Origin: Deltaproteobacteria bacterium
Lineage (GTDB): Bacteria; Desulfobacterota; GWC2-55-46
NCBI GenBank assembly: GCA_020846435.1
Contig: JADLDY010000009.1
Location: forward strand, 1-64,000
Direction: 5' to 3'
Length of the DNA stretch: 64,000 bases
This document shows positions 2,971 to 53,219 of this stretch, piece after piece. The stretch's first letter is position 1. Each line of letters begins with the position of its first letter. The notes under the pieces were generated by a model. That model saw only the letters and a program-made list of their open reading frames with translations, did no database searches and was not told the DNA's origin. The translations under genes were made by a program, and so were the position numbers.

Positions 2971-3516
2971 TTAAAGGGCGCGCTTGATGGCCGCGTCGAG
3001 TATATCCTTCGTTATGACACCGGAATGCTCGTACAGGACCATGCCTGTTCTGTCGATGATGTAGGTCCTGGGTATGGCGTAGATGTTGTAGGCCTTCGCT
3101 ATCTCGCCGTCCGCGTCAAGGCCGGCTGTGAACTCGAGCTTGAAGTCCCTTACAAAGCCCCGTGCCCCTTCCTCGCTGTCGTCGATGGCGACCGCCACGA
3201 ACTCGACCCTGTCACCGAACTCAGCCCAGGCGTCGCGGAGCGCGGGGGCTTCCAGCTGGCACGGGCCGCACCAGCTCGCGAAGAAGTTGACTACGACAGG
3301 CTTTCCCCTGAGCCCCTCTAAAAAGAACTCTTTGCCGTCAAAGCTCCTCATGCCAAAAGGTACGGCCTGCTGCGATTGAACTGCCAAAGGGGCTTGCGAA
3401 GTCTCGCGGACCCCGGGCTTTTCAGCCTCGCCTGCCTTCTTGCAGCCGGCGAGAAGAAAGCCCGCGGCAAATATGGTTATAATGAGCGTCAGACCTTTAA
3501 ATGACCGCATGCGCAC
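2971..3516 (-). CDS. TlpA-type thiol:disulfide lipoprotein
   Basis: This is a thioredoxin-fold protein of the TlpA/ResA group with 181 residues. The N-terminus has a hydrophobic signal and lipobox LLAGC (Cys25), so it should be a periplasmic lipoprotein. The catalytic motif is WCGPC (Cys83, Cys86), followed by DSEEGARGF and the cis-Pro loop AIPRTYIIDR. Such proteins reduce disulfides for cytochrome c maturation or protect extracytoplasmic thiols; a CcsB-type cytochrome c assembly protein is encoded at 46315. It lies downstream of the thioredoxin gene on the same strand, but a strong terminator separates them (3562-3596), so it is likely transcribed on its own. The substrate is not visible from sequence. 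Confidence 0.88.
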   Translation of the reverse strand: MRMRSFKGLTLIITIFAAGFLLAGCKKAGEAEKPGVRETSQAPLAVQSQQAVPFGMRSFDGKEFFLEGLRGKPVVVNFFASWCGPCQLEAPALRDAWAEFGDRVEFVAVAIDDSEEGARGFVRDFKLEFTAGLDADGEIAKAYNIYAIPRTYIIDRTGMVLYEHSGVITKDILDAAIKRAL

Positions 3517-20744: not shown

Positions 20745-20777
20745 GTCCGCAGTTCATCTGAGAACCGGCTTCGTCAA

Positions 20778-20895
20778 GGCGTCTTAAAAAGCTCCAGATG
20801 CAAGGCGTCGAGGAGCGAGGAATGAGGCGTACTTTTCTTGTACGCCGCAATAACTCGCGACACTGACACGACGCAGATGGACTTTTCAAGACGCC
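20778..20895. repeat. Dispersed hairpin element, copy B
   Basis: The outer arms GGCGTCTT (20778-20785) and AAGACGCC (20888-20895) pair perfectly and differ in sequence from the arms of other copies. The core GAGGCGTAC-N7-GTACGCCGCA is conserved. It ends 8 bp from the glnA stop codon. Confidence 0.88.
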
Positions 20896-22316: not shown

Positions 22317-22391
22317 TACAAAACCTCCTTATTATGTATCCGGTATGGAATAGACTGCTTGGCAGTTGCTGAAACAAAACCAATTTAGTTA

Positions 22392-22514
22392 AGGCTGCTC
22401 AAAAAGGTCCAGATGCCAGGAGTCGAGGCGCGAGGAATGAGGCGTACTTTTGTAGTACGCCGCAATTAACTCGCGCCGAAGACGACAACGCAGATGGGCA
22501 GCTTGAGGCAGCCT
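22392..22514. repeat. Dispersed hairpin element, copy C
   Basis: The outer arms AGGCTGCTCAA and TTGAGGCAGCCT are complementary with one bulge and differ from other copies. The core GAGGCGTAC-N7-GTACGCCGCA is conserved. It fills the space between glnA and glnB and ends 1 nt from the glnB stop. Confidence 0.88.
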
Positions 22515-22515
22515 G

Positions 22516-22872
<357 letters not shown>

Positions 22873-46074: not shown

Positions 46075-46110
46075 ACCTTCTGACTGGAACACCCAATAAC
46101 GGCAGGTTGC

Positions 46111-46218
46111 TCAAAAAGTTCCAGATGCGAGGAGACGAGGAGCGAGGAATGAGGCGTACTTTTTCTGTACGCCGCAATGACGGGCGACGTTGACGACAAA
46201 GCAGATGGTGCTTTTTGA
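46111..46218. repeat. Dispersed hairpin element, copy D
   Basis: The core GAGGCGTAC-N7-GTACGCCGCA is conserved and TCAAAAAG pairs with CTTTTTGA at the ends; outer pairing is weaker than in other copies. It lies between the convergent methyltransferase and ccsB genes. Nothing else is evident in the 240-bp gap. Confidence 0.82.
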
Positions 46219-46314
46219 AGCTCCCAGCGGCAAGCCTCGGGAGCTTCGAAACCTAAGGAAGTCTCGATTTCTATTCGCTCGCTTTGCGCTCGCTATGGGT
46301 TTTCAGCAGCCTGT

Positions 46315-47139: not shown

Positions 47140-47259
47140 GGTTGCTCAAAAAGTCACAGTTGCGAGGAGACAAGGAGCAACGAGGGAGGCGTACTTTTTC
47201 AGTACGCCGCACTGAGGCGCGACGATTACGACAACGCAGATGGGACTTTTTCAGCGACC
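47140..47259. repeat. Dispersed hairpin element, copy E
   Basis: The arms GGTTGCTCAAAAAGTC and GACTTTTTCAGCGACC pair with few mismatches and differ from other copies. The core GAGGCGTAC-N7-GTACGCCGCA is conserved. It lies upstream of ccsB and 43 bp past the queE stop. Confidence 0.86.
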
Positions 47260-47302
47260 TGCAAGACAGAATTTTACCGTTCAGCAAGCCTAAAGTAAAG
47301 GA

Positions 47303-51472: not shown

Positions 51473-52558
51473 TCAGGGAATGACCCAGATATTCTCTTTC
51501 TTTAATGATACCTTGACTCGTCTGCCGACCGCAAGTTCAAGTTTCCTCACCACGAAGTTCGGCAGCTCCACTTTAAGCGGCGTCCTTCCGTGCCCTGTCT
51601 CAAGATAGAGTATGTGTGTCGAGCCCTTGCCTATGGAGCCTGTTATATCGCACTCAAGGATGTTGTCCTGAACCCTGCCCAGGACCCTGTCCGGCCTTAT
51701 GACGAGGATCTCTTCCGGACGGATGCAAAATGACGCCTCAGCCCCTATTGCGAGGCTTGAGGCCTTCGGGTGCGGTGCCTTTATGACGCCTATGTCCGGG
51801 GTGTCGATAAGGACGCTCGCGTCTTCGAAGCCTGAGACAACACCGGCGAATATATTGCGCACGCCCATGAACCTCGCGACGTTCCTTGTCCCGGGCCTGT
51901 AAAAAACATCCTCCCTCGTGCCTGACTGCTCGATCACGCCGTTGTTTATGACGGCTATCTTTTTACCGAGCATGAACGCCTCTTCGAGGTCGTGGGTCAC
52001 AAGGACGGTCGTTATCGGGTATATCCTGTGGATGTTGATAAGGTCGGCCCTGAGCTTTTCCCTTACCTGGTAGTCGAGCGCGGAGAAAGGCTCGTCAAGA
52101 AGGAGCACCCTCGGCTCGGCGGCAAGGGTCCTTGCCAGAGCCGTCCTCTGCTTCTGGCCGCCTGAGAGCTCGTGCGGATATCTCTTCTCAAGGCCAGCGA
52201 GGCGCATGAGGCTGAGGAGCTCATTGACCTTCTTCCCTGCGGCCTCCCTGGCGCCTTCTATGCCGTAGGCTATGTTCTCTTCGACCGTCATGTGCGGAAA
52301 AAGGGCGTAGTCCTGAAAAAGGTAGCCTACCTTCCTTTTCCTCACTGGCAGGTTTACGCCCTTTGCCGAATCAAAGAGGACTTCACCGCCTGCCGCGACC
52401 CTGCCTTCATCAGGCGCGACGATGCCTGAGATCATCCTGAGCGCCATGGTCTTGCCTGCCCCGGAGGGGCCGAAAAGGACGAGGAGCTCCTCGTCGAGCC
52501 GGAGGTCGATCTTTATCTCGATATCTTCGAGCTGTTTTTTGAGAGATATCTCAAGCAT
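51473..52558 (-). CDS. modC: Molybdate ABC transporter ATPase
   Basis: A 361-residue ATPase of the MolC/ModC type. Walker A is GPSGAGKT, the signature LSGGQKQRTALARTL, Walker B LLLDEPFSALD and the switch His in VLVTHDLEEAF. The C-terminal 130 residues form a TOBE/regulatory domain. It energises import through ModB. It overlaps closely with modB (7 bp gap). Confidence 0.93.
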   Translation of the reverse strand: MLEISLKKQLEDIEIKIDLRLDEELLVLFGPSGAGKTMALRMISGIVAPDEGRVAAGGEVLFDSAKGVNLPVRKRKVGYLFQDYALFPHMTVEENIAYGIEGAREAAGKKVNELLSLMRLAGLEKRYPHELSGGQKQRTALARTLAAEPRVLLLDEPFSALDYQVREKLRADLINIHRIYPITTVLVTHDLEEAFMLGKKIAVINNGVIEQSGTREDVFYRPGTRNVARFMGVRNIFAGVVSGFEDASVLIDTPDIGVIKAPHPKASSLAIGAEASFCIRPEEILVIRPDRVLGRVQDNILECDITGSIGKGSTHILYLETGHGRTPLKVELPNFVVRKLELAVGRRVKVSLKKENIWVIP

Positions 52559-52565
52559 CTGTCTG

Positions 52566-53219
52566 TTAAAGCCTTCCCCGGCTTATCTTCCCCGCGGCAA
52601 ACAGGACCATAAAGGAAAAGAGCGTTATTATGAGCACAAGCAGGTTGGCCGCGTTGCTGTCGCCGGACTGGACCGCGTCATATATGGCGATGGGGAGAGT
52701 CTGCGTGACGCCGGGGATATTTCCGGCTACCATGAGGGTCGCGCCGAACTCGCCGGTAGCCCTCGCGAAGGCCATGACAGCTCCTGCGAGCAACCCTCTC
52801 CATGCAAGCGGCAGGGTTATCGTCCTTATCACCTGCCACTCGGTCTTGCCTAGGAGACGGGCCGCGTTCTCCAGGTCGGCTCCCACGCCCTCTAACGCGG
52901 CCCTCGCAGGTTTCACGAAGAGAGGGAGAGAAGAGATAAAAGCCGCCAGAACCGCGCCTTTCCACGTGAAGACTATCTCGATCCCCAAAGAGTCGAGCAC
53001 GCCGCCCAGCCAGCCAGACCTGCCAAAAAACGCGAGGAGGTAGTAGCCAAGAACAGTGGGCGGTATCACGAGCGGCTGCATTATTACGACATCAAGGAGC
53101 CCCTTGCCCCAGAAATCTTTTTTCGCCATGACCCAGGCAAGCGTGAGCCCGACCGCGATGGTAAGGACGGTCGCAACAAAAGAGACTTTGATTGTAAGGA
53201 AAAGAGGGAACAAATCCAT
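52566..53219 (-). CDS. modB: Molybdate ABC transporter permease
   Basis: A 217-residue permease with about five transmembrane helices and the EAA-type coupling loop ENAARLLGKTEWQVIRTITLPLAWRGLLAG. FARATGEFGATLMVAGNIPG is the typical ModB motif. It is adjacent to modA (0 bp) and modC. Confidence 0.94.
   Translation of the reverse strand: MDLFPLFLTIKVSFVATVLTIAVGLTLAWVMAKKDFWGKGLLDVVIMQPLVIPPTVLGYYLLAFFGRSGWLGGVLDSLGIEIVFTWKGAVLAAFISSLPLFVKPARAALEGVGADLENAARLLGKTEWQVIRTITLPLAWRGLLAGAVMAFARATGEFGATLMVAGNIPGVTQTLPIAIYDAVQSGDSNAANLLVLIITLFSFMVLFAAGKISRGRL

Follow-up and report, generated by a model that had tools for sequence, protein, structure and literature searches.

Several described systems bear comparison with the DNA hairpin element analyzed here. 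REPINs, which are associated with RAYT, are dispersed intergenic 5′-tailed hairpins that show compensatory changes, reach many copies and prefer gene ends, and the terminus of GTAG REPs often provides a stop codon (PMC3733652). Bacterial MITEs, including ERIC, Correia, and RUP, are gene-free intergenic sequences of 100–250 bp with terminal repeats and a short target duplication. Insertion sequences of the IS5 group duplicate a 4-bp YTAR target (PMC10359306). IS200/IS605 elements have a replication-linked orientation and hairpins that are read on one strand. To our knowledge, these elements generate no target duplication. In Geobacter metallireducens, the published description of multicopy "class 4" sites interprets them as sites for IHF/HU (PMC2700814); this repeat, aligned in Figure S6 of that work, may be related to the present element.

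The element is a gene-free DNA of ~150 bases that occurs at dozens to more than 100 sites per genome in many uncultured bacteria, including the one that contributed the 64-kb stretch of DNA analyzed in full (the window). The family is probably a non-autonomous mobile DNA hairpin, MITE- or REPIN-like, that enters YTAR sites in an orientation set by replication and uses an enzyme supplied in trans. In REPINs, two inverted REP units are conserved at the ends, whereas the present element has a conserved center and variable ends, carries 4-bp direct duplications, lacks a consistent RAYT, and is found in many phyla; the RAYTs examined carry other REPs. It differs from MITEs in terminal repeats that vary by lineage around a conserved core, in its replication-fixed orientation, and in that no parent IS was found. 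In contrast to IS200/IS605, it is flanked by target duplications, and on the nascent lagging strand it has the strand that folds better. These tiny mobile elements form a large and apparently little-described family; a literature search by sequence returned unrelated papers only, and no description of the element was found in the literature on MITEs, REPs, and replication.

Anatomy and Fold of the Element

The full unit is ~152 bp and comprises a ~28-nt 5′ tail, which contains a terminal repeat, and a ~124-nt hairpin, with 4-bp YTAR target duplications flanking the unit. Its terminal repeat is followed by a spacer of ~9 nt, an imperfect copy of the repeat that forms the left arm of the hairpin, the conserved core (GAGGCGTAC-loop-GTACGCC), and the right arm, which constitutes the other terminal repeat. 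The 124-nt hairpin was obtained by aligning 42 full copies from the window's genome. In the closed relative G008, the left flanks add 28 nt, CAGCTTGCTGAAAAACTCCGTTTTTATT, which begin with the terminal repeat; the right end is its complement. The original prediction had set the left edge at the hairpin itself, a boundary that is 28 nt too short and conceals the target duplication. Long copies keep the short terminal inverted repeats of G008 (CAGSTTGCTGAAAAA.../...TTTTTCAGCAGCCTG) at their actual termini, and a similar tail repeat lies at −26 to −28 in many copies from Desulfobacterota despite quite different arms (for example, tail GATGGACTCGTAAAAAGTC with right end CTTTTTACGAAGCCATC). Alignments of copies from the window's genome and from other lineages have an invariant core and variable ends, which inverts the usual logic: the center is conserved and the ends are exchangeable.

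The hairpin is a long stem with short internal loops, and in approximately half of the copies GA lies opposite GA at four of these loops. Calculated with DNA parameters, the folding energy of the plus strand is better than that of its complement in 40 of 42 copies from the window's genome, 79 of 106 from G008, and 64 of 65 from other lineages. Within paired cells, the excess of G·T over A·C is modest (41:25 and 55:42), so the strand asymmetry rests mostly on loops and energy terms. The GTTRRRY/RYYYAAC core of integron attC sites, which lie in cassette arrays, is not visible in the element consensus, and the copies are scattered singly.

Some departures from the full unit were also seen. Left-truncated copies that begin at approximately profile position 42–50, just before the core hairpin (L009, L022, L028, L030, L032, and L034), lie mostly in tandem to the left of intact ones. 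Direct tandem arrays of three elements, with a unit spacing of ~125–135 bp, occur at L041:4373–4744 and L123:6230–6615, and in other lineages small hairpin repeats reside inside the internal loops of the element (L092, L140, L151, L156, L176, and L178).

Copies in the Window

Five copies sharing a core had been predicted in the window, and all five cores (GAGGCGTAC-N7-GTACGCCGCA) are exact at the expected places, against a chance expectation of 0.01; with the covariance model these copies score 115–126 bits. All lie on the plus strand. The hairpin of copy A (19–140; arms CAGGCCG/CGGCCTG), identified by its core and the covariance-model match, overlaps at its right end the 3′ end of a minus-strand gene (130–789), and its tail is lost at the contig edge, as the contig begins at base 1. 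Copy B (hairpin 20777–20895; arms GGCGTCTT/AAGACGCC) is situated between the glnA stop codon and a conserved intrinsic terminator. Copy C occupies the glnK–glnA gap; the right end of its hairpin (22392–22516) adjoins the glnK stop codon, and comparison with G008 copies identifies its 5′ tail at 22363–22391 (CAGTTGCTGAAAC..., a degenerate terminal repeat). The hairpin of copy E (47140–47262) is also present at the orthologous site of G002, a genome of the same genus. A sixth, diverged copy had been proposed as well, and a decayed plus-strand copy F was found at 2853–2971, where the match is weak (19.7 bits, E 0.026) and the right end falls at the stop of a minus-strand gene (2971–3516). A search of the window with Rfam gave no match above the gathering score.

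The right arm had been read as the complement of the left in copies A, B, C, and E. The pairing holds in all four, but copy E has one G·T pair and copy C a one-base bulge. Copy D appeared unpaired in that reading because it is a long form (46103–46312, plus strand), in which the hairpin is followed by a second module of ~85 nt and only then by the terminal repeat TTTTCAGCAGCCTG, ending at ~46312. Six other long copies are built likewise, with an extra module of ~85–110 nt yet the same terminal repeat at the end. The second module has a common form, GAAGCTCCC..GGGAGCTTCGAAACCTAAGGAAG..TTCGCTCGC (window 46219–46312; L004, L009, L021, L033, L036, and L037), and sometimes bears a further small hairpin insert.

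Covariation of the Arms

Genome-wide, covariation of the arms was well above controls in the window's own genome and overwhelming across phyla, as the original prediction had anticipated. In the alignment of 42 copies of the window's genome, both sides had changed in 18 of 38 pairs, versus 5.7 on shuffling; the covariation score was 0.118 (shuffled, 0.072 ± 0.004; slid controls, at most 0.051). A set of 60 copies taken from other lineages had 330 doubly changed cells, compared with 90 in shuffles, and a score of 0.406 (0.119 shuffled, at most 0.069 slid); the alignment behind both figures was fitted to the covariance model and leans toward it.

This covariation agrees with selection on structure, under which the arms would covary since the fold, rather than the sequence of the arms, has to be kept. 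Template switching within the hairpin, by which one arm is copied onto the other with no selection involved, is nevertheless a serious alternative or contributor, and we consider it a sizeable, if lesser, likelihood. Such arm-to-arm copying fits the replacement of whole arms together with near-perfect partners in some copies (L032, L019, and L015), as well as the orthologous copies at the glnA site, which differ in both arms. It fits less well with the short internal helices between the loops, which also covary, with the presence of G·U intermediates, or with the tail, which has only part of the arm changes.

Copy Number, Site Polymorphism, and Distribution

The core with a loop of 4–12 nt occurs ~56 times in the 2.40-Mb genome of the window and 0 times in a reversed control. 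The covariance model returned 120 rows from this genome at E ≤ 0.01, a figure that includes reverse-strand self-matches and corresponds to ~75–85 distinct copies. Within the same family, the number per genome ranges from 0 (G005 and G022) to at least 87, with 80 in G007; the closed relative G008 has 111 copies.

Individual sites are polymorphic. Copies B and C of the glnA region are common to the window's genus. The copy that G008 holds in the glnK–glnA gap is independent and oppositely oriented, and G007 has a copy at the glnK stop; the gap is empty in G005, G006, G010, and G013–G015. At window positions 52558–52566, two genes are separated by 7 nt and the site is empty, whereas G002 has an element in that gap; conversely, copy D is absent from the orthologous site of G002. 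This variation in copy number and the empty and filled orthologous sites, together with the YTAR duplications and the insertions into other repeats described below, bear out the suggestion that the hairpin is mobile.

A scan of named genomes for the exact core identified at least 119 stretches, and among the matches listed most are from Desulfobacterota (Geobacteraceae, Desulfobacteraceae, Syntrophaceae, and Desulfobulbaceae), with others from Methylomirabilota, Nitrospirota, Omnitrophota, Bdellovibrionota, and more. Profile scores are lower beyond the window's family, and recognition is weaker in these lineages than in Desulfobacterota. Exact cores with no profile match (e.g., Streptomyces L173, Anaeromyxobacter L177, and Rokubacteria L158) were treated as due to chance or too diverged. 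No match was found in the plasmids and phages searched. Among IMG/VR viral contigs, 18 stretches (L362–L379) contain the core, some of them in two copies; proviral flanks and true carriage are both possible.

Target Sites and Stop Codons

In G008, the four bases outside the ends are YTAR in 39 of 73 copies on the left and 36 of 73 on the right, compared with 0.4% of genomic positions. Where YTAR is found on both sides, the two are identical in 15 of 22 copies and inverted in 1. The first and last bases of YTAR are correlated between the sides (Fisher p 0.027 and 0.0015), and the 15 exact flank matches compare with 6.4 in shuffles, the maximum in 2000 shuffles being 13. Six copies split another repeat, the intact form of which, AATTTTTAGAGGTTGCC, is uninterrupted in 28 copies; the copy at 1686123, for example, reads AATTTTTAG[element]TTAGAGGTTGCC. 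Taken statistically, these flanks show insertion with a 4-bp stagger at YTAR. Short terminal inverted repeats and a YTAR duplication with a fixed length of 4 bp are features of MITEs of the DDE type, although the duplication is imperfect in most copies, the least diverged included. Drift of stop codons (TTAG to TCAG and CTAA to CTGA, of the TAA-to-TGA type) would account for many of the flank differences, though not for all; conversion between copies may explain why the least diverged copies have no cleaner duplications.

The sampled sequence of G008 contains at least 28 copies of the dispersed repeat ending in AATTTTTAGAGGTTGCC that serves as a target (e.g., L242 and L263). At G008 602225 (L264:3700–4060), the element is itself interrupted: a different repeat, which ends in GATACCCCGCAGCTTGCTGCGGGGAGGTTC, separates its tail from its hairpin.

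Because a pyrimidine followed by TAA or TAG fits YTAR on either strand, insertion at such a site regenerates the stop codon, which explains why half of the G008 copies abut stop codons. Of the 69 G008 copies beside a minus-strand gene, 34 have their right end within −2 to 1 of its stop, and in 11 of 55 left flanks the distance to the stop of a plus-strand gene is 26–30 nt, which equals the length of the tail. Insertions at TAA and TAG stops do no harm, and they are over-represented for that reason.

Orientation Relative to Replication and Transcription

With the origin of G008 placed at ~0.04–0.13 Mb and the terminus at ~1.25–1.35 Mb, solely from GC skew and gene strand, 91 of the 111 copies point against the moving fork and the other 20 point with it. 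Gene direction does not cause this bias, which persists between convergent genes (20:4) and where genes are head-on (19:2). As the copies oppose the forks, the better-folding strand corresponds to the nascent lagging strand or, equivalently, the leading-strand template. Of 72 copies in the window's genome, 65 have the majority orientation of their own contig (shuffle mean 48, maximum 59); the skew of the window is −0.036 and all of its copies are on the plus strand, and loci of this genome have 45 negative and 11 positive skews. Orientation by skew is 52:22 for loci from other lineages. That orientation follows replication is, in statistical terms, shown by these counts.

Such a bias could arise by biased insertion or by later loss of copies whose stronger hairpin forms on the lagging-strand template. 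The stronger hairpin does stay off that template, as loss would have it. However, among the 96 G008 copies away from the origin and terminus, the 20 with the closest relatives already have a 20:0 orientation, a ranking by nearest-neighbor identity that may reflect conversion and not age, and the bias is no larger in more diverged copies. Biased insertion is therefore favored, and loss appears rather improbable.

The same data bear on the other branch of the original prediction, an RNA 3′ element, and on the related idea of a bidirectional transcription terminator, either of them maintained by selection on the transcript. Enrichment beside gene ends, symmetric A/T tracts, and the covariation of the arms would suit such an element; the left/right gene contexts are (−,−) 25, (+,−) 15, (+,+) 10, and (−,+) 1. 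These contexts, like the convergent and head-on ones above, come from a simple home-made gene caller; in the window its genes agree with the ORF list, although it omits some and places some starts differently. Orientation, however, tracks replication and not transcription, even at convergent or head-on genes, and relative to the adjoining gene it is mostly the antisense strand that folds better. Contact with stop codons was dropped as evidence for a terminator, given that YTAR targeting accounts for it. At one site, 3′ of glnA, relatives keep a canonical intrinsic terminator with the element before it; since this conserved terminator persists downstream of copy B, the element is not the glnA terminator. 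A role at the RNA level thus seems most unlikely. The case is a caution that a gene-end hairpin whose arms covary may be mistaken for an RNA element or terminator when DNA mobility accounts for it.

Search for a Mobilizing Enzyme

No mobilizer or autonomous partner of the element was found by the following searches. The transposase families covered were IS4/IS5 (PF01609), IS701 (PF13546), and IS1182 (PF13751). Transposases of the three families are absent from G008 and almost all relatives, and a parent IS of any of these types was rejected. The IS5 group shares the YTAR duplication with the element, but its transposase domain (DDE_Tnp_1, PF01609) is absent from both the window's genome (G000) and G008 and was found in 4 of the 40 genomes searched. 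Because IS5 is known to duplicate YTAR, an IS5-like enzyme that is now lost, or an enzyme of another family, is possible. A parent transposon with the same ends was also sought, and no IS-sized pair of ends was recognized among pattern matches with ≤2 mismatches in the closed G008 genome or among the candidates from 2.25 Mb of sequence.

A candidate enzyme acting in trans would insert the element at replication forks. It would treat the terminal repeats as the ends of the element, and the one-strand hairpin would serve it for recognition or to set the orientation. The element joins target duplications, a cut-and-paste trait, with a replication orientation bias best known from single-strand transposition, and its enzyme, once found, would test how the two coexist. 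A bolder and on balance unlikely proposal is a new class of mobile hairpin, in which a folded single strand would enter YTAR sites of the nascent lagging strand, at a stagger of 4 bp, through some enzyme, perhaps a housekeeping one, that does not come from a co-resident transposon, its terminal repeats being exchangeable between lineages while the core is kept.

Mobilization as a REPIN by RAYT, an HUH tyrosine transposase acting via single-stranded DNA, is very unlikely. The 5′-tailed hairpin has compensatory arm changes, as have been reported for REPINs (PMC3116915), its orientation is linked to replication, and RAYT genes are present in several genomes. The window's genome has a single RAYT (an NF047646 match), and G008 also has one; these are the only Y1 matches in the two genomes. 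Both adjoin other GTAG hairpins and not this element (RAYTs L051 and L196). Nor does the presence of RAYT track the element: no RAYT match was found in G009 (98% complete, 58 copies) or G001 (95%, 64 copies), and G006 and G010 each have one RAYT and 8–9 copies. HUH transposition is not known to produce 4-bp duplications. IS200-type elements use the lagging-strand template (PMC6006769), which is opposite to the strand that folds better in this element.

The RAYT gene of the window's genome is intact (L051:1370–2110; G000:C34), and the GTAG-tagged REPs that flank it (GGTGGGCACCGCCCACC) form a separate REP family. A further repeat, resembling GTCATTCTGAGCGAAGCGAAGAATCT, recurs in several genomes of the family (L004, L046, L233–L236, and L350).
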